Assembly: GCA_905339405.1 (NCBI GenBank)
Contig: CAJPGC010000042.1
Span: 1 to 51,640 of the forward strand
Reading direction: 5' to 3'
Source of the DNA: an uncultured bacterium
GTDB taxonomy: Bacteria > Desulfobacterota > GWC2-55-46
Length of the DNA: 51,640 nt
Position 1 is the first letter of the stretch, and each line of letters starts with the position of its first letter. The notes beneath the pieces were generated by a model. It made no database searches and was not told where the DNA came from. It was given only the letters and a program-made list of their open reading frames with translations. Made by a program: the position numbers and the translations under genes. Shown in pieces: positions 28,177 to 38,696 of this stretch.

Positions 28177-28388
28177 GGTCAGTTCTCCTTCCTTGAAAAT
28201 CGTCTGTCGCTTTTCAGGGATAAATGGTGGGCTCCGCCGGATACAAACCGGACTACTCTGGATATTATAGCGGACAGTCTTGATTTGTGCTTGGAGGCGG
28301 GCGTTTTTTTCTCGCCGGGGCCTCCCGGCGTTTCTTGACGAGGGCGCGTTACCTGATATATTTGAAGATGTACTTACCACGGGTGCCA
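28177..28388. promoter_or_regulatory. Divergent nirS / oxidase regulatory region
   Basis: 212 bases between two divergent starts. The plus strand has AT-rich TATTATAG near 28262. I found no intact TTGAT-N4-ATCAA (FNR/NNR-type) site. Joint control of nitrite reductase and the oxidase from here is inferred from arrangement. Confidence 0.35.
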
Positions 28389-29168
28389 ATGAAAAAGCGC
28401 CGTATCCAAAGCCTTCTCTGCGCCGTTTTCCTCATCTTTTCCATGACCCAGTTCGCTTACGGCGCACAGGCCCCCGGCCTGATCGAAAGGACCGGGGAGC
28501 AGGTGCCGCTTGGCGCCGAGTTCAGGGACGAGTCTGGCAAAAGCGTAACCCTCGGCCAGCTGCTTACAAAGCCGGCGGTGCTCTCCTTCGCCTACTTCGG
28601 CTGCGAGGACCAGTGCAACACGGTCCTTTCAAACCTCGCCCGCGCCCTCGGCAGGACAAAAGGGACTCCCGGAGAGGACTTCCTCGTCCTGACGGTCAGC
28701 TTCGACGGCCAAGACACCCCGGAGGACGCTGCCTACAAGAAAAAGAATTACACGCTTGCCTCAGGCAGGCAAATGGACGAGGGCGCGTGGCGGTTCCTGA
28801 CCGGCGGCAATGATTCGATTGAAGCCCTTACAGGGGCAGCAGGGTTTTCCTTCCGCAAGACCGAAAAAGGCTTCGACCATCCGGCAGCCTTAGCTGTGCT
28901 CTCTTCCGACGGCAGGATAATAAGGTACATCTACGGCAACTCATACCTTCCGGCAGACATCGAGATGGCCCTCCTCGAGGCCTCTGAAGGAAGGATAACG
29001 GCTTCAATCAAAAAGGCCATCCAGCTGTGCTTTAGCTCCGAGCCGGGCGGACGGGCTTATCTGGTATCCGTGCTCAGGGCGGCCGGTGTCGGCACGCTCG
29101 TATTCGCCGCAGTCTTCTTCATCTATGTCACGGCTTCCAACAGGCCGGGCAAAAAGGACCCGAGATAA
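28389..29168 (+). CDS. SCO1/SenC-type copper chaperone
   Basis: A 259-residue protein: signal-anchor helix (about 6-24), thioredoxin-like domain with copper ligands C72 and C76 (FGCEDQC) and H164 (GFDHPA), and a C-terminal membrane helix (about 233-252). SCO proteins metallate the CuA site of oxidase subunit II. It opens the oxidase operon and overlaps ctaD by one base. ATG at 28389 gives the signal helix; earlier in-frame codons lie in the nirS promoter region. A C-terminal membrane anchor is less common for SCO. Confidence 0.9.
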   Translation: MKKRRIQSLLCAVFLIFSMTQFAYGAQAPGLIERTGEQVPLGAEFRDESGKSVTLGQLLTKPAVLSFAYFGCEDQCNTVLSNLARALGRTKGTPGEDFLVLTVSFDGQDTPEDAAYKKKNYTLASGRQMDEGAWRFLTGGNDSIEALTGAAGFSFRKTEKGFDHPAALAVLSSDGRIIRYIYGNSYLPADIEMALLEASEGRITASIKKAIQLCFSSEPGGRAYLVSVLRAAGVGTLVFAAVFFIYVTASNRPGKKDPR

Positions 29169-30775
29169 TGGCGTTCGAAGGGACAGGAGAAGGCAGTTAC
29201 CTTTCTGCCGAGCCCGGAAAAGGGTGGCTTTCCTCGTGGCTCCTCACGACCGACCACAAGAGGATAGGCGTCTTGTACCTCTTGTCCATAATGTCGTTTT
29301 TCTCCGTCGGGGTCGTCTTCGGCTTCCTCATGAGGCTAGAGCTCATATCCCGCGGGCCGACCATAATGGAGGCCACTACCTACAATTCGTTCTTCACGCT
29401 ACACGGCGTCATAATGCTCTTTTTGTTCCTCATCCCGGTAGTCCCGAGCGTCTTCGGCAACTTCCTTTTGCCGATAATGATAGGCGCCAGGGACGTCGCC
29501 TTCCCGAGGCTCAACCTCCTGTCGTGGTACTTCTACATGGCAGGGGCGGCCCTGGCCATAACCACGCTGATAATAGGCCCGGCAGACACGGGCTGGACCT
29601 TTTACGCGCCGTACAGCTTAAGGACGCCTTCGAGCGCCTCTCTTGCGGTCTTCGCAGTTTTTGTGCTCGGCTTCTCGTCCATCTTGACCGGCATAAACTT
29701 CGTGACTACCGTCCACAGGCTCCGCGCTCCCGGCATGACATGGTTCCGGCTCCCGCTCTTCGTCTGGGCCACTTACGCAACTGCGTGGATACAGGTGATA
29801 GCGACCCCCATACTCGGCGTGAACCTCTTACTGGTAATGGCCGAGAGGCTCTTCGGCATCGGCGTATTCGACCCGGCCAAAGGCGGGGACCCGATACTCT
29901 ACCAGCACCTATTCTGGATATACTCTCATCCGGCGGTTTACATAATGGTGCTGCCCGCGATGGGTGCGATATCCGAGATAGTGCCGGTCTTCGCCAGGAA
30001 GGTCATCTTCGGGTACAAGGCCATAGCCTACTCGAGCATAGGCATCGCGGCCGTCGGCTCCCTCGTGTGGGGCCACCATATGTTCGTGAGCGGCTTCAGC
30101 TACACGGCGGCCGTTTATTTCTCGCTCTTCACCTTTTTCGTTGCCATCCCGAGCGCCATCAAGGTCTACAACTGGGTCGGGACCATGTACAAGGGGTCGA
30201 TCGTCATGGACACGCCTTTTTACTACGCGCTTGTCTTCATCTTCCTGTTCTCCATCGGCGGGCTTTCGGGCCTCATCCTCGGCGCGCTCTCGGTCAACGT
30301 CCACCTGCACGACACCTACTTCGTCGTGGCCCATTTCCATTACATAAAGTTCGGCGGGGCCGCCTTCGGCTTTTTCGCCGCCCTCCACTACTGGTTCCCG
30401 AAGATATCCGGGAGGATGTACAACAGGAAGGTCGCGAACTACTCGCTCCTTTTTCTCTTCATAGGCTTTAACACGCTCTTTTTCCCGATGTTCGTCCTGG
30501 GCTACGAAGGCATGCCGAGGAGGTACTTCGACTACCTGCCGCAGTACGCCGACTTACAGCATCTGTCCATCGTTGGCTCCTGGATACTCGTGGCCGCGCT
30601 CTTCACCATGATAGGCAACCTCGTCGCGGCAGCATTCAGGGGAAAGACCGCCCCCTCTAACCCCTGGGGGGCGATGACGCTCGAATGGCAGGTCGCCTCC
30701 CCGCCTCCGAAGGAGAACTTCGGGGAGATACCAGAGGTAAAGCGCGGCCCATATGATTTCAGGGAGGGGCCATGA
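29168..30775 (+). CDS. ctaD: Cytochrome c oxidase subunit I (A2 type)
   Basis: A 535-residue heme-copper oxidase core with twelve helices. Heme and CuB ligands are seen in FTLHGVIM, IYSHPAVYIMVLP (His-Tyr crosslink pair), GHHMFVSG and HDTYFVVAHFHYI. The motif YSHPAVY, with Tyr-Ser in place of the Glu of GHPEVY, marks an A2-type D-channel as in caa3 enzymes. It pumps protons while reducing oxygen. The end overlaps subunit III by 4 bases. Confidence 0.95.
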   Translation: MAFEGTGEGSYLSAEPGKGWLSSWLLTTDHKRIGVLYLLSIMSFFSVGVVFGFLMRLELISRGPTIMEATTYNSFFTLHGVIMLFLFLIPVVPSVFGNFLLPIMIGARDVAFPRLNLLSWYFYMAGAALAITTLIIGPADTGWTFYAPYSLRTPSSASLAVFAVFVLGFSSILTGINFVTTVHRLRAPGMTWFRLPLFVWATYATAWIQVIATPILGVNLLLVMAERLFGIGVFDPAKGGDPILYQHLFWIYSHPAVYIMVLPAMGAISEIVPVFARKVIFGYKAIAYSSIGIAAVGSLVWGHHMFVSGFSYTAAVYFSLFTFFVAIPSAIKVYNWVGTMYKGSIVMDTPFYYALVFIFLFSIGGLSGLILGALSVNVHLHDTYFVVAHFHYIKFGGAAFGFFAALHYWFPKISGRMYNRKVANYSLLFLFIGFNTLFFPMFVLGYEGMPRRYFDYLPQYADLQHLSIVGSWILVAALFTMIGNLVAAAFRGKTAPSNPWGAMTLEWQVASPPPKENFGEIPEVKRGPYDFREGP

Positions 30776-31383
30776 ACGGGACAACGGCTCATTCCCACAG
30801 GGACTACACCGGCTCGAAGATAGGGATGTGGCTATTCCTCTTCACCGAGTTCTTTCTCTTTTTCGGCCCGATACTCCTGTACTCGATATTCCGGTTCAGG
30901 TACCCTCAGGCCTTCATAGACGCCTCCCTCGCGCTTGATACAGGCGTCGGCGTTTTCAATACCGCTTTGCTCCTCACGAGCAGCCTTACCATGGCCCTCT
31001 CGATAACCGCCATGCAGAGGGGGAAAAAAGGGACGACGCTCGTCCTTATGGGAGCGACTGTGCTGGCCGGGGCCGTCTTTCTAGTGAACAAGTACTTCGA
31101 GTGGGGCGCGAAGATATCCCACGGGGTCTATCCGGGAGGGGAGGCGCTTGAAGGGGTGAAAGATGGCGGGGCCGTCTTCTACGGGCTCTATTTTTTCGCG
31201 ACGGGCCTCCACGGCATACACGTGCTCGCGGGGATGGTCATAATAACCGTTGCGGCGCTTCTGGTCCATGAGGGCAGGATAAACTCGAACGATTTCGTGA
31301 AGCTCGAGAACACCGGGCTTTACTGGCACCTTGTCGACGTCATCTGGATATACCTCTTCCCGATATTCTACCTTGTAAGGTGA
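30772..31383 (+). CDS. ctaE: Cytochrome c oxidase subunit III
   Basis: A 203-residue protein with five predicted helices, the short class of subunit III. KIGMWLFLFTEFFLFFGP, EWGAKISHGVYPG, and FFATGLHGIHVLAGM and FVKLENTGLYWHLVDVIWIYLFPIFYL are family motifs, including the conserved Glu and His. It stabilises subunit I and its proton uptake. It overlaps ctaD by 4 bases (ATGA) and lies directly before subunit IV. Confidence 0.93.
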   Translation: MNGTTAHSHRDYTGSKIGMWLFLFTEFFLFFGPILLYSIFRFRYPQAFIDASLALDTGVGVFNTALLLTSSLTMALSITAMQRGKKGTTLVLMGATVLAGAVFLVNKYFEWGAKISHGVYPGGEALEGVKDGGAVFYGLYFFATGLHGIHVLAGMVIITVAALLVHEGRINSNDFVKLENTGLYWHLVDVIWIYLFPIFYLVR

Positions 31384-31388
31384 GAGAG

Positions 31389-31682
31389 ATGGACGCGAAA
31401 GAGTCAAAACATCGCATTGTAGGCTACCCCGTCCTTTTCGGAGTATGGGCCGCGCTCCTGGGGCTTACCTGGCTCACGGTGGGCCTCTCGGGCACAGGGA
31501 TGGGAAGTTTCACCATACTCGCTCCTTTCCTCATAGCCTCTGTAAAGGCATTCCTGGTCGTGGATTACTTCATGCACCTCAAGTACGAATCGGGCTTTTT
31601 CAAGTACCTGCTACTCGTGGTGCTCGGGACTGTCGTCATCATCGCGTGGCTTGTATATCAGGACGTAGCCTACAGGATATAA
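31389..31682 (+). CDS. Cytochrome c oxidase subunit IV (caa3 type)
   Basis: A 97-residue protein with three hydrophobic helices (about residues 12-30, 38-60, 72-92) and the motif KAFLVVDYFMHLKYESGFFKY of prokaryotic subunit IV. It stabilises the oxidase assembly. ATG at 31389 follows AAGGTGAGAG; GTG at 31380 overlapping the previous stop would add three residues. Gene order I-III-IV-II is unlike the common II-I-III-IV. Confidence 0.85.
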   Translation: MDAKESKHRIVGYPVLFGVWAALLGLTWLTVGLSGTGMGSFTILAPFLIASVKAFLVVDYFMHLKYESGFFKYLLLVVLGTVVIIAWLVYQDVAYRI

Positions 31683-31705
31683 CGAAAGAGCAAAGGGAAT
31701 AGACC

Positions 31706-32656
31706 ATGTTCTCCGCCGCTACTCTTACAGGAAAGGAAGTAGACTCCGCCTTCTGGGTGATAACGGGCATCTGCGCCGTACTGTTCGTTCTCATCATCTT
31801 TTTCATGCTCTTTTTCTTATACAGGTACCGCCGGTCGAGAAGCCCTGTCCCGGGCGATATCGAGGGTAACGCCACGCTCGAGCTATCGTTCCTGGGTATA
31901 TCAATCGTCATCGTGCTCGCCATGTTCCTGTGGGGCTGGGATGGCTACAGGATGATAAGGGGGCAGGCCCCGGAAGGCTCGCTCGAGGTAAAGGCGACTG
32001 GGCAGATGTGGCTCTGGACCTTCGAGTATGGGCAGGGGCGCCAGTCGAACACCCTCATACTGCCCTACGGCAAGCCGGTCAGCATCCGCCTTTTTTCAAA
32101 CGACGTCATACACAGCTTATACGTGCCGGCCTTCAGGGTAAAGCAGGACGCCGTGCCAGGGTCGGAAAAAGACCTCTGGTTCACGCCCGACGAGACAGGG
32201 ACCTTTGACCTTTTTTGCGCAGAGTATTGCGGCACAGGCCATTCGGCGATGATAACGAAGGCGGTAGTCGTAGGGGAGGCTGACTTTAACGCGTGGCTTG
32301 CCGGGAAAAAAGAGATAACGCCCGCAGGGGCCGCTCCGGCGGCGGCCGCGAAAGGTGAAAAAACCGGCGCGGAAAAAGGCCGTGAGCTCTTCCAGTCAAA
32401 GGGGTGCAGCGCTTGTCATTCAACGGACGGCTCGAAGCTCATCGGGCCGTCGTTCAAGGGGCTCTTCGGGAAAAAGGAGACAGTGGTGACGGCTGGCAAG
32501 GAACGCGAGATTACCGTGGACGAGGCGTACATAATAAAATCAGAGCACGAGCCTGCCGCCGACGTTGTCGTTGGCTTCCAGCCGTTGATGCCTCCGTCCC
32601 CGATGAATGACGAGGAGATAAAGGCGGTAATCGAGTTCATGAAGACGCTGAAGTGA
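31706..32656 (+). CDS. ctaC: Cytochrome c oxidase subunit II with fused cytochrome c
   Basis: A 316-residue protein: two N-terminal helices (about residues 16-38 and 57-75), a cupredoxin CuA domain with ligands in DVIHSLYVP and FCAEYCGTGHSAM (Cys, Cys, His, Met), an Ala/Lys-rich linker, and a C-terminal heme c domain (GCSACHS, with a likely axial Met in QPLMPPSPMND). The fusion is diagnostic of caa3 oxidases, which take electrons from soluble cytochrome c. It is last in the operon rather than first. Confidence 0.94.
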   Translation: MFSAATLTGKEVDSAFWVITGICAVLFVLIIFFMLFFLYRYRRSRSPVPGDIEGNATLELSFLGISIVIVLAMFLWGWDGYRMIRGQAPEGSLEVKATGQMWLWTFEYGQGRQSNTLILPYGKPVSIRLFSNDVIHSLYVPAFRVKQDAVPGSEKDLWFTPDETGTFDLFCAEYCGTGHSAMITKAVVVGEADFNAWLAGKKEITPAGAAPAAAAKGEKTGAEKGRELFQSKGCSACHSTDGSKLIGPSFKGLFGKKETVVTAGKEREITVDEAYIIKSEHEPAADVVVGFQPLMPPSPMNDEEIKAVIEFMKTLK

Positions 32657-32814: not shown

Positions 32815-33127
32815 CACCGTAACAGGGCGGAGCGTTTCTCGCGGAGGAAGGGCGAAACGCGACGGGGAAGCAGGGAGCGAAGCGACTTTGGGGGAGCGTT
32901 TCGCGGGCGGGGAGGCTGAAAGCGCGTGGAGCATGTTACAGAGAGCGGCGGTAGCCGCGTTACATGGTTTTTCGGTGAGAATACATTTGCGCGCCAGCGC
33001 GCACGCACATGTCATTCTGAGCGAAGCGAAGAAGCTCTGCGCTGGAGGTTAAAGGCCGGGATTTTTCGTCGCCTGCGGCTCCTCAGAATGACAGGTTTTT
33101 GTTTTCATGCTCCGCCCTGTTACGGTG
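32815..33127. repeat. 313-bp MITE-like element with 19-bp terminal inverted repeats
   Basis: Ends CACCGTAACAGGGCGGAGC (32815-32833) and GCTCCGCCCTGTTACGGTG (33109-33127) are perfect inverted repeats. The left two thirds are a diverged, inverted, internally deleted copy of the 271-bp repeat (19511 and 38786), including the CCATGTAACGCGGC segment. It has no coding capacity. With the riboswitch it fills most of the 32657-33525 gap. Confidence 0.75.
33010..33093. repeat. 84-bp REP-like inverted repeat nested in the element
   Basis: TGTCATTCTGAG (33010-33021) and CTCAGAATGACA (33082-33093) are perfect inverted ends, with GCGAAGCGAAGAAGC next to the left end as in the widespread CATTCTGAGCGAAGCGAAG repeats. 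It appears inserted into the larger element. Confidence 0.7.
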
Positions 33128-33191: not shown

Positions 33192-33220
33192 TTGACAAAT
33201 CCGGCGTAAAAGATTAGTAT
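33192..33220 (+). promoter_or_regulatory. Promoter of the serine/purine cluster
   Basis: TTGACA (33192-33197), a 17-base spacer, TAGTAT (33215-33220). Transcription would begin near 33227, just before the riboswitch aptamer. Confidence 0.7.
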
Positions 33221-33242
33221 AGGCGTCACAAAAAGAGCGTGC

Positions 33243-33370
33243 ATCTTCCGTAACTGACGGAATCAAGGTGGGTTACCACCGGGGAGCGGGGGATTATATA
33301 TGTCGACCGTCTGGGCTTGCGCATTCCTCTGACCGAGGAAGTGTGGCAAATCCAGGCGGTCTTTTTTTTG
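33243..33370 (+). promoter_or_regulatory. ZTP (pfl) riboswitch with overlapping intrinsic terminator
   Basis: The aptamer core has hairpin GGTGG-GTTA-CCACC (33267-33280) followed by GGGGAGCG, the ZTP hallmark, and a 3' domain CCGTCTGGGC (33307-33316) in place of the consensus CCGCCTGGGC. The pseudoknot partner is changed to match: GACGG (33256-33260) pairs with CCGTC (33307-33311). GACCGTCTGG (33305-33314) can instead pair with CCAGGCGGTC (33352-33361) ahead of eight T's. Ligand binding would thus block the terminator, giving an ON switch for aminotransferase-serA-hisZ-purA. Confidence 0.88.
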
Positions 33371-33525
33371 AAAGGGCAGGCGCAAGGAAAAAGGCAATAG
33401 AATCAGGTAGATAGCTGACGGAAGCGGCACTTTCTAAACACTCTGCCCCGCGGTTTTTTCACCTTCGCCCCGTTATCTTAGTTTTTAAAACAAAATGCTT
33501 TCATAAAACCGGAGGAGTCTTTGTC

Positions 33526-34671
33526 ATGAAAAAAAGATATCTTTTAGCACCTGGCCCAACGCCCGTACCCGAGTCGGCGCTCCTGGCAATGGCTCAGCCC
33601 ATAATGCATCACAGGACCCCGCAGTTCTCCGAGATATTCAGGGAGACGGCGGAGCTTCTTAAGTACGTCTTCCAGACGAAGCAGGACGTCCTCATGCTGG
33701 CCGCCTCAGGCACCGGCGCTATGGAAGGCTCCATCACCAACCTCTTCTCCCCCGGCGATGAAGTCCTCGTCGTAAACGGCGGCAAGTTCGGTGAGAGGTG
33801 GGGCAAGATATCCGAGGCATACGGCCTCAAGGCCCATTGGATAACCGTCGAGTGGGGCAAGGCTGTCGATCCGGCCGTCATAAAGAAGGCCCTCGACGAG
33901 AACCAGAACATAAAGGCTGTAATGGTGCAGGCTTCCGAGACCTCGACGACCGCGGCCCATCCCATAAAGGAGTTGGCCGCCATCACGAAGGACAGGAACT
34001 GCCTCCTCATAGTAGACGGCATAACCGGCGTAGGCGTCTTCGACCTTCCGATGGACGACTGGGGCATAGACGTAATGGTATCTGGCTCGCAGAAGGCCTT
34101 CATGCTTCCCCCGGGCCTCGCTTTCGTGGCCCTCTCCGAGAAGGCGTGGAAGTTCCAGGAGACCGCCAAGGTCCCCAGGTTCTACTTCGATTTCAAGAAG
34201 GAGAGGAAGAACCTCAAGGACAACACCTCTGCCTATACCCCGGCCGTCTCCCTCATAATCGGCCTCAGGCAGGCCCTCCTCATGATAAAGGAAGAAGGCC
34301 TGGAGAACACTTTCAAGAGGCACGACAGGCTGGCCCGCGCCACGAGGGCTGCTGCACAGGCGCTCGGCATGAAGCTTCTGGCCCCTGAGAGCCCGTCGAA
34401 CGCCGCGACCGGTATCTTCGTGCCCGAGGGCGTCGAAGGCGGCAAGCTCGTGAAGTACCTCCGCGACGAGATGGGTGTCACCATGGCCGGCGGCCAGGAC
34501 CACCTGAAGGGCAAGATAGTGAGGGTGGCGCACCTCGGCTACTTCGACACTTTCGACATAATAATAGCAATAGCCTCCCTTGAGATGGCCTTGAGCAAGT
34601 TCGGCCACAAGGTGGCTTTCGGAGCGGGAGTTGCCGCTGCCCAGCAAATTCTCTTAGAGGGATACAAATAA
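33526..34671 (+). CDS. Class V aminotransferase (alanine/serine-glyoxylate type), possible phosphoserine aminotransferase
   Basis: A 381-residue PLP enzyme with the family start YLLAPGPTPVPESALLAMAQPIMHHRT, LMLAASGTGAMEGSI, and PLP lysine K190 in VSGSQKAFMLPPGL. It overlaps serA by one base, so the likely role is the transamination of 3-phosphohydroxypyruvate to phosphoserine; relatives in other bacteria are annotated alanine-glyoxylate aminotransferases. The function is inferred from context. GGAGGAG precedes ATG 33526, 156 bases after the riboswitch terminator. Confidence 0.85.
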   Translation: MKKRYLLAPGPTPVPESALLAMAQPIMHHRTPQFSEIFRETAELLKYVFQTKQDVLMLAASGTGAMEGSITNLFSPGDEVLVVNGGKFGERWGKISEAYGLKAHWITVEWGKAVDPAVIKKALDENQNIKAVMVQASETSTTAAHPIKELAAITKDRNCLLIVDGITGVGVFDLPMDDWGIDVMVSGSQKAFMLPPGLAFVALSEKAWKFQETAKVPRFYFDFKKERKNLKDNTSAYTPAVSLIIGLRQALLMIKEEGLENTFKRHDRLARATRAAAQALGMKLLAPESPSNAATGIFVPEGVEGGKLVKYLRDEMGVTMAGGQDHLKGKIVRVAHLGYFDTFDIIIAIASLEMALSKFGHKVAFGAGVAAAQQILLEGYK

Positions 34672-36254
34672 TGAAGGTACTCATAGCTGACAGCATGTCT
34701 TCGAAGGCCGTCGAGATCCTGAAGGAGACCCCGGGGATCGACGTAGACGTGATAACCGGCCTCAAGCCCGATGAGCTCAAGGCCAAAATAAAGGACTACC
34801 ACGGCCTCGTCGTAAGGAGCGCCACCAAGGCTACCGCCGAGATAATCGAGGCGGCCGAGAACCTGAAGGTCATCGGCAGGGCAGGCACCGGAGTCGACAA
34901 CGTCGACACCGTGGCCGCAACTAAAAAAGGCATAGTCGTCATGAACACGCCCGGCGGCAACACCATAACGACCGCCGAGCACGCCGTTTCAATGATGATG
35001 GCCCTGGCGAGGAAGATACCTCAGGCGACCGCCTCCATGAGGCGCGGCGAGTGGGAGAAGAAAAAATACGAGGGCACCGAGATAACCGGCAAGACCCTCG
35101 GCATCCTCGGCGTGGGCAACATAGGCGCTGTCGTGGCCAGCCGCGCACTCGGGCTCCGCATGAACGTCATGGCCTACGACCCCTTCATATCAGAAGAGGC
35201 CGCTGACAAGATGGGCATAGCCCTCGTTACGATGGACGAGCTCTTCAAGAAGAGCGATTTCATATCCATCCACGTCCCCCTTACGGCCGAGACCAAGAAC
35301 ATCGTCAACGCCGAAGCTTTCAAGAAGATGAAAAAGGGCGTAAAGCTCATCAACTGCGCCAGGGGCGGCATCGTCAACGAAAAGGACCTCGCCGGCGCCA
35401 TAAAGGAGAAGATAGTCTCCGGCGCGGCCCTGGACGTCTTCGAGAAGGAGCCCGTTCCGGCTGACAACGCGCTCCTCCAGATGGAGGAGATAATATTCAC
35501 CCCGCATCTCGGGGCCTCGACTTTCGAGGCGCAGGAGTCTGTCGCCATCGCGATAGCCAACCAGATATCCGACTACCTCGTGAACGGCACCATAAGGAAC
35601 GCCGTGAACGTGCCTTCCATTCCCTCGGAGCTGCTCGTCGCCTTGAACCCGTACATCTCGCTCGGCGAGAAGCTCGGCAGCTTCCAGGGGCAGATATTGA
35701 AGGGCGGCATAGAAGAGGTCGCAATCGAGTACAGCGGAGACGTCGTGAACTACGACGTGGCGCCCATAACCATCGCCTGCCTCAAGGGCCTCCTGGACCA
35801 GCTCCTCGACATGTACGTCAACTTCGTCAACGCTCCGTTCGTCGCCAAGGAGAGGGGCATTAAGGTGGTCGAGGTCAAGAGCTCGAGGGCTACCGACTTT
35901 GCCAGCTCCATAACGATAAAGGTGAAGACGAAGGACGGGGAGAACGTCGTGGAAGGCGCCCTGTTCGGCAAGAAGGAGCCCAGGATAGTTAGGATAGACA
36001 AGTTCCTCCTGGACGCCGTGCCGGAGGGCAACCTCCTGCTGCTGCAGAACGAGGACAAGCCGGGCGTCATCGGCAACGTGGGCACGCTTCTGGCGGCCAA
36101 CAACGTGAACGTCGCCAGGCTCCATCTCGGCCGTTCGTCCGAAGGCGGCGAGGCCGTTTCCGTGTGGAGCGTCGATACCCCGGTTGCAAAGGGGCTCGTC
36201 GAGAAGCTCCTGAAGCTCCCCCACATGGTATCCGTGAACGTGATAGAGCTGTAA
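34671..36254 (+). CDS. serA: D-3-phosphoglycerate dehydrogenase
   Basis: A 527-residue long-form SerA: substrate-binding N terminus (VLIADSMSSKAVEIL), NAD domain with LGILGVGNIGAVVA, catalytic Arg in NCARGGIVNE, Glu in DVFEKEP and His in TPHLGAST, then the ASB domain and a C-terminal ACT domain (LLLQNEDKPGVIGNVGTLLA) for serine feedback. It commits 3-phosphoglycerate to serine, which feeds glycine and one-carbon folates. It starts inside the aminotransferase stop (TAATG). Confidence 0.96.
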   Translation: MKVLIADSMSSKAVEILKETPGIDVDVITGLKPDELKAKIKDYHGLVVRSATKATAEIIEAAENLKVIGRAGTGVDNVDTVAATKKGIVVMNTPGGNTITTAEHAVSMMMALARKIPQATASMRRGEWEKKKYEGTEITGKTLGILGVGNIGAVVASRALGLRMNVMAYDPFISEEAADKMGIALVTMDELFKKSDFISIHVPLTAETKNIVNAEAFKKMKKGVKLINCARGGIVNEKDLAGAIKEKIVSGAALDVFEKEPVPADNALLQMEEIIFTPHLGASTFEAQESVAIAIANQISDYLVNGTIRNAVNVPSIPSELLVALNPYISLGEKLGSFQGQILKGGIEEVAIEYSGDVVNYDVAPITIACLKGLLDQLLDMYVNFVNAPFVAKERGIKVVEVKSSRATDFASSITIKVKTKDGENVVEGALFGKKEPRIVRIDKFLLDAVPEGNLLLLQNEDKPGVIGNVGTLLAANNVNVARLHLGRSSEGGEAVSVWSVDTPVAKGLVEKLLKLPHMVSVNVIEL

Positions 36255-36329: not shown

Positions 36330-36364
36330 CAAAGCCGTGTTATGTTACCGATAACACGGCTTTG
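36330..36364 (+). promoter_or_regulatory. Perfect 14-bp hairpin before hisZ
   Basis: CAAAGCCGTGTTAT (36330-36343) and ATAACACGGCTTTG (36351-36364) pair fully around GTTACCG, ending 7 bases before the hisZ start. There is no U run, so it is not a classic terminator; it could limit hisZ translation or be an mRNA processing site. Confidence 0.6.
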
Positions 36365-36371
36365 TCTTGGA

Positions 36372-37400
36372 ATGAGCATGGCATTACCTACGATATCACT
36401 GCCGCAAGGCGTACGCGACATACTCCCTGAGGAGGCCGCCAGGATAGGGGCCGCCGAAGCGGGAATACTCTCGGTATTCGAAAAGCACGGGTTCAGGAAG
36501 ATAGTGACCCCGCTCCTCGAGTACGTGGACGTGCTTTCCCTCGGCATGGGAGCCAACCTCAAGGACAGGGTCTTGAAGTTCATCGACCCCTCGACCGGCC
36601 GGGTCGTGGCCATCAGGCCCGACATCACCCCCCAGATAGCGAGAGTCGCGGCGACGAGGATGCGCGAACACGGGCTTCCGTTGAAGCTCTGCTATAACGA
36701 GAGCGTGCTGCGCTACCAGGAGCCCAGGGACGGCAAGAGCCGCGAGGTGCTTCAAATAGGGGCGGAGTACATATCCGAAAAGGCCTCGGCTGCCATAGAC
36801 GCCGAGATGATAATAATCTCCATAGAGGCCCTCGAGGCCATAGGCTTGAGGGATTTCAAGATCGACATCGGGGACGTCGGCTTTTTGCGCGCCGTCCTCG
36901 ACAAGCTCCCGGTCGACGGAGAATCGAGGGGCAGGATAAAAGACTCGATTGCCATAAAAGACACCTCCGGGCTCGAGGCCGCCCTCTCGGGCCTCAAGCT
37001 CCCCGGCAAGGACAGGCAGCTCCTTTTGAACCTTACGACCTTTTACGGCGAGGAAGAGGTCCTGGAGAAGGCGGCTTCGTTCTCGAAGGACGCCGAGAGC
37101 CTCTCGGCGCTCGAGTATTTGCGCGTTGTCGTGGACATAGTCGCTAAAAAGGGCTTCAAGGACCGCGTCACCATAGACCTGGGCGAGGTCCGGGGCTTTG
37201 ATTACTACACCGGCATCATATTCGAAGGGTTCGCTTCAGGGGTCGGCAAGCCCATTCTCTCCGGCGGCAGGTACGACACGCTTCTGGCCCGCTACGGCTT
37301 CCCGGCTGCCGCGACGGGCTTCGCCTTCGACGTGGAGAATATAATCTCCGGCCTCGAGCGCATGGACAAATCAAGGAAAGGGCAGGGAAGAGTACTTTAA
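36372..37400 (+). CDS. hisZ: ATP phosphoribosyltransferase regulatory subunit HisZ
   Basis: A 342-residue HisRS-like paralogue: LPQGVRDILPEEAARI opening, motif 2 region RPDITPQIARVAATRM, LCYNESVLRYQEP, and RGFDYYTGIIFEGF. It lacks the HisRS anticodon-binding domain, as expected of HisZ, which activates the short HisG. No hisG is in the window. ATG at 36372 is used because an earlier in-frame ATG (36342) lies inside a perfect hairpin. It abuts purA. Confidence 0.9.
   Translation: MSMALPTISLPQGVRDILPEEAARIGAAEAGILSVFEKHGFRKIVTPLLEYVDVLSLGMGANLKDRVLKFIDPSTGRVVAIRPDITPQIARVAATRMREHGLPLKLCYNESVLRYQEPRDGKSREVLQIGAEYISEKASAAIDAEMIIISIEALEAIGLRDFKIDIGDVGFLRAVLDKLPVDGESRGRIKDSIAIKDTSGLEAALSGLKLPGKDRQLLLNLTTFYGEEEVLEKAASFSKDAESLSALEYLRVVVDIVAKKGFKDRVTIDLGEVRGFDYYTGIIFEGFASGVGKPILSGGRYDTLLARYGFPAAATGFAFDVENIISGLERMDKSRKGQGRVL

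Positions 37401-38696
<1,296 letters not shown>

Follow-up and report, generated by a model that had tools for sequence, protein, structure and literature searches.

The window analysed here, a stretch of 51,640 nucleotides of DNA from an uncultured bacterium, carries a leader RNA in front of a gene cluster that begins with serine biosynthesis, and this locus raises the question of whether the RNA is a ZTP riboswitch of the usual kind and what a ZTP signal would be doing at such genes. An earlier note, made from the letters alone, had named the RNA a ZTP riboswitch and had suggested a covariance-model search as a check. This search (cmscan) revealed a match to RF01750, the ZMP/ZTP riboswitch, of 61.4 bits (E=1.3e-7) over the full model (positions 1-86), which exceeds the Rfam gathering cut-off of 39 bits. 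It was one of three Rfam matches in the whole window, the other two being tRNAs. The conserved hairpin is composed of GGTGG (33267-33271), the loop GTTA (33272-33275) and CCACC (33276-33280), directly followed on the 3' side by GGGGAGCG (33281-33288), and the pseudoknot P4, in which GACGG (33256-33260) pairs with CCGTC (33307-33311), joins the P1/P2 domain to the 3' domain. In the riboswitch from Fusobacterium ulcerans, the ligand contacts U16, G17, G63, C69 and G71, and P4 includes A18 and U68 (PMC11419147). When the window RNA was aligned to this published numbering, the contacting bases corresponded to 33255 T, 33256 G, 33305 G, 33311 C and 33313 G, all of which are kept, and A18 and U68 mapped to 33257 and 33310, again with unchanged bases. 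Judged by its sequence, the RNA at 33240-33323 is thus a genuine and standard ZMP/ZTP riboswitch of ordinary architecture, as the earlier note had proposed.

The same note had regarded GACGG/CCGTC as a joint departure from the consensus of both pseudoknot arms and hence as compensatory evidence. The pair is real, but it does not reflect a local compensatory event. The A-U form of P4 occurs in every RNA of the window's class that fits the core pattern; three class RNAs outside the strict core pattern nevertheless carry CCGTCTGGGC, and, in other families of the phylum, two RNAs have the G-C form. An exact-pattern search of species genomes yielded at least 120 stretches with the A-U aptamer form, most of them from Clostridia and others from Coriobacteria, and a different family of the phylum has this form upstream of fhs. 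As F. ulcerans carries A18/U68, the supposedly altered pair belongs to a ZMP binder of solved structure; given this and the occurrences elsewhere, the idea that the pair points to a variant ligand was rejected, and it represents ordinary class variation. The P1 stems, compared by eye, vary on both sides among the aminotransferase leaders (for example CCTTCG/CGAAGG and CTTCCG/CGGAAG).

Features of the riboswitch operon in the window, with the evidence for each
Feature	Position	Strand	Evidence
Sigma-70-like promoter TTGACA-17-TAGTAT	33192..33220	+	Scan, 10/12 matches, 0.4 expected in shuffles
ZMP/ZTP riboswitch aptamer (RF01750)	33240..33323	+	cmscan 61.4 bits, full model
5' arm of pseudoknot P4, GACGG	33256..33260	+	Sequence; A-U form in class members and F. 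ulcerans
Conserved hairpin GGTGG-GTTA-CCACC	33267..33280	+	Sequence and Rfam alignment
Aptamer 3' domain GTCGACCGTCTGGGC	33302..33316	+	Rfam alignment; contains pseudoknot 3' arm 33307-33311
Intrinsic terminator re-using aptamer 3' domain	33305..33369	+	Arms 33305-33315 / 33351-33361, then T8
Class V aminotransferase (serine/alanine-glyoxylate type), probable phosphoserine aminotransferase	33526..34671	+	PDB 6pk1 serine-glyoxylate aminotransferase, E 9e-66
serA, 3-phosphoglycerate dehydrogenase	34671..36254	+	TIGR01327, 658 bits, cut-off 454
hisZ, ATP phosphoribosyltransferase regulatory subunit	36342..37400	+	TIGR00443, 310 bits, cut-off 272
purA, adenylosuccinate synthase	37401..38696	+	NF002223, 656 bits, cut-off 402

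The predicted promoter ends about 20 nt upstream of the aptamer, and TTGAC is present within 100 nt upstream in 17 of the 20 leaders of the aminotransferase group. Just 5' of this promoter, at 33011-33033, lies a dispersed repeat, GTCATTCTGAGCGNAGCGAAGAA, of which the genome holds 20 exact copies, as against no copy of the reversed control sequence. Downstream, a 57-nt hairpin (33305-33361) with a predicted free energy of -34.1 kcal/mol (z -5.7, no shuffle equally good) is followed by eight T's at 33362-33369. The alternative pairing of 33305-33314 with 33352-33361 that had been claimed is therefore present, although the helix is really one pair longer (33305-33315 with 33351-33361). Because the 5' arm of the terminator is the 3' domain of the aptamer, the two structures are mutually exclusive, and the predicted minimum-energy fold of the full leader is the terminator form, as expected without ligand. 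A terminator of the ON type that shares sequence with the aptamer, as described in the earlier note, is thus supported by folding. Folding and promoter scanning gave no recognised function for the 156 nt that separate the terminator from the start codon; a second regulatory structure within 33370-33525 was considered and rejected, as the fold was weaker than that of shuffles (z +1.95) and no promoter was found there.

Among the relatives, a terminator overlapping the aptamer 3' domain was obtained for all 29 Rnf, all 33 Icd and all 19 aminotransferase leaders tested, when shuffled tails would be expected to give such an overlap in 5.7, 5.9 and 2.9 leaders, respectively. Three sucC leaders fell outside the distance limit of this test, and one of them has a hairpin further downstream. 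A simple CCAGACGG terminator pattern caught only a minority of leaders, and folding to each T-run recovered nearly all of them.

Protein-profile matches confirm the gene order aminotransferase-serA-hisZ-purA. Three of the four proteins exceed their model cut-offs, and no exact NCBIfam equivalog was found for the aminotransferase. No SerC above the cut-off was detected in the genome, and the sole match to the SerC model is this same aminotransferase (19.5 bits); since it is the only candidate found, it probably fills the phosphoserine (SerC) step. Gene order and its conservation suggest that hisZ and purA are on the transcript of aminotransferase-serA. A cytochrome c oxidase cluster (28287-32656, with CoxB at 31706-32656) is located directly upstream of the riboswitch operon. 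Taken with the ATP-citrate lyase genes at another locus, it points to an organism that uses oxygen and cleaves citrate.

With the pfl motif RF01750 as known from F. ulcerans and from pfl of Clostridium beijerinckii, the window RNA shares the full-model match, the ligand-contacting bases and a terminator that invades the 3' domain (ON switch), and with the F. ulcerans switch also the A-U pair of P4. The pfl RNAs described in 2010, in which terminators overlap the 3' region, mostly precede purH, fhs, pfl, glyA or folD (PMC2864571). The target operon of the window RNA differs, as its first gene is not a purine, formate or folate one-carbon gene; the aminotransferase is followed by serA, and purA comes only fourth. 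Serine biosynthesis as a target, which the earlier note had set apart from the usual ZTP genes, does depart from them; however, a precedent exists in Bacillus and Oceanobacillus, where a tandem ZTP/glycine switch precedes the gene that starts the conversion of 3-phosphoglycerate to serine (PMC9481103), so that serA is an already reported type of ZTP target. Both are ZTP ON switches on the 3-phosphoglycerate-to-serine pathway, but the window RNA has one ZTP aptamer and lacks a glycine aptamer, and its operon has the aminotransferase first and hisZ-purA downstream.

The genome itself contains three RF01750 matches in all. One of the other two (L033, on G000:C34) lies upstream of rnfC-rnfD-rnfG (RnfC matching TIGR01945 with 520 bits), and the other (L034, on G000:C35) precedes a monomeric NADP-isocitrate dehydrogenase gene (TIGR00178, 1343 bits) in the order icd-aclB-aclA. 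Of the two ATP-citrate-lyase-like subunits that follow icd, the first has the large subunit of citryl-CoA synthetase (6hxq) as its best solved relative, followed by ATP-citrate synthases. These two switches have the same aptamer core and terminator design as that of the serA cluster, but differ from it in that their targets are electron transport and ATP-citrate lyase and in that icd leaders of the class usually have a proximal TTGACA element. This genome also has purH and fhs, the latter divided between two contigs, and neither gene has a ZTP RNA that scores above the threshold. For 2-oxoglutarate:ferredoxin oxidoreductase, a search returned only partial matches below the cut-off.

RF01750 RNAs were detected in 50 of 147 related genomes and, in a sample of 395 genomes spread evenly over the phylum, in only 25, of which 14 belong to the window's class. 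Within the window's own family, 29 of 30 genomes have a match, and the first downstream genes are Rnf (25 genomes), Icd (22) and aminotransferase-serA (19), with a CPA2 antiporter (5), pyrophosphatase-pntA (2) and pntA (1) as rarer targets. In other families of the class, Icd/ACL was found in f3, f4, f7, f8 and f11, Rnf in f7 and f11, and sucC, pntA and kup in f11. As the genomes are incomplete, all of these are lower bounds. The comparison of serA-orthologue leaders that the earlier note had proposed showed the aptamer in 19 of the 24 family leaders long enough to judge, whereas it is absent from the remaining five (G009, G010, G013, G015 and G020) and from five f8/f11 leaders inspected. The serA switch therefore has the narrowest distribution of the three ZTP operons, being found only in the window's family, and since the Icd association spans six families, it looks like a later addition.

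The two pyrophosphatase-pntA matches and the one pntA match (L050, L056 and L220) might be taken for truncated or weak (E > 1e-5 in the Rfam search). This was rejected, as a long insert really separates the two halves of their aptamers; they score below the Rfam cut-off although neither the 3' domain nor the terminator is damaged, and model searches will miss members with such inserts. At five loci, L087 and L062 among them, a ZTP RNA stands before a gene for a CPA2-type cation:proton antiporter; the automatic call places the gene start only some 80-100 nt after the aptamer begins, and the gene probably starts further downstream.

Among 64 loci outside the lineage that carry the same A-U aptamer, mostly from Clostridia, the first genes included purE (19), pyruvate formate-lyase (13), fhs (9), PFL activase (4) and purH (3), and classical purine, formate or folate genes stood first in 48 of the 64, in line with the contrast to usual ZTP targets drawn in the earlier note. 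As the method finds classical genes where they are present, their absence as first genes in the class is real. Such an absence would be explained if the class RNA had kept the ZTP fold and now responded to a different metabolite, one linked to central carbon or reducing power, and the targets in the class (Icd/ACL, Rnf, SucC, PntA, pyrophosphatase, Kup and the CPA2 antiporter), set beside the classical genes behind the same RNA form elsewhere, fit this idea. Riboswitch variants with changed ligands, however, normally show changes in the pocket, and here every named ZMP pocket base is unchanged, the A-U pair is the one of a proven ZMP binder, and at L086, in a different family of the phylum, an RNA of this form stands before fhs. 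We consider a changed ligand improbable and regard the RNA as a probable ZTP sensor.

An aptamer that no longer switches, in a decayed or constitutive leader with a working terminator and expression arising from elsewhere, would be a different way of accounting for the locus. The serA leaders that lack the riboswitch indicate that it is dispensable, and 27 of 34 icd-acl leaders have a TTGACA element downstream of the aptamer and ahead of the start codon, which would fit such a state. This element was found in 4 of 30 Rnf leaders and in none of 20 aminotransferase leaders, so transcription of the latter must pass the switch, and each of the 19 aminotransferase leaders tested has kept both the aptamer core and the terminator overlap. 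Decay is thus very improbable, even more so than a changed ligand. In the icd-acl leaders concerned (for example L044, L049, L064, L065 and L090), TTGACA after the aptamer suggests a second, riboswitch-independent promoter. From this distribution, Icd/ACL would probably have a basal expression to which the switch adds, and the serA cluster would probably depend on its switch.

Our preferred reading, to which we assign a probability of roughly 0.88, is therefore a canonical ZTP ON switch that governs aminotransferase-serA-hisZ-purA as one of three ZTP operons in this genome. We infer ZTP as the ligand and a direction of control in the cell as follows. The upstream promoter would drive transcription of the leader and, without ligand, the downstream arm would capture the 3' half of the aptamer, forming the terminator and stopping transcription before the aminotransferase gene. 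When 10-formyl-tetrahydrofolate runs short, ZMP/ZTP would build up and, once bound, would stabilise the pseudoknot and keep the terminator from forming, so that the cluster would be expressed, leading to more serine and a greater one-carbon supply. Besides serine, the supply of fixed carbon and reducing power appears to be driven by the ZTP signal in this lineage, through the Rnf and the NADP-isocitrate dehydrogenase/ATP-citrate lyase operons. If carbon is fixed by a reverse TCA cycle, less fixed carbon would mean less serine and consequently a formyl-folate shortage, and the regulon would counter the shortage where it arises. Against this reading, it is odd for a formyl-folate alarm that the organism's own purH and fhs are without a ZTP RNA above threshold, and ZTP-induced Rnf and ATP-citrate lyase are without a published precedent that we could find. 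In a literature search that fell short of key subscription papers, no link of a ZTP riboswitch to Rnf, isocitrate or ATP-citrate lyase was found, and the only paper joining ZTP, riboswitch and citrate lyase concerned HeLa cells.

For the class as a whole, we lean towards the view that ZTP riboswitches have moved from purine and folate genes onto a conserved carbon-fixing and reducing-power set (NADP-isocitrate dehydrogenase with ATP-citrate lyase, Rnf, succinyl-CoA ligase and transhydrogenase, with serine synthesis in one family), so that ZTP may signal a shortage of biosynthetic carbon. The window RNA is itself one further ZTP riboswitch, and what is new, as far as could be checked, is the rewired regulon. 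These results also caution against naming a gene function from the riboswitch class alone. If ZTP truly controls Rnf and the citrate cleavage of the reverse TCA cycle in these organisms, its role as a metabolic signal would reach beyond that of an alarm for formyl-folate, and carbon fixation would be directly linked to a nucleotide intermediate.
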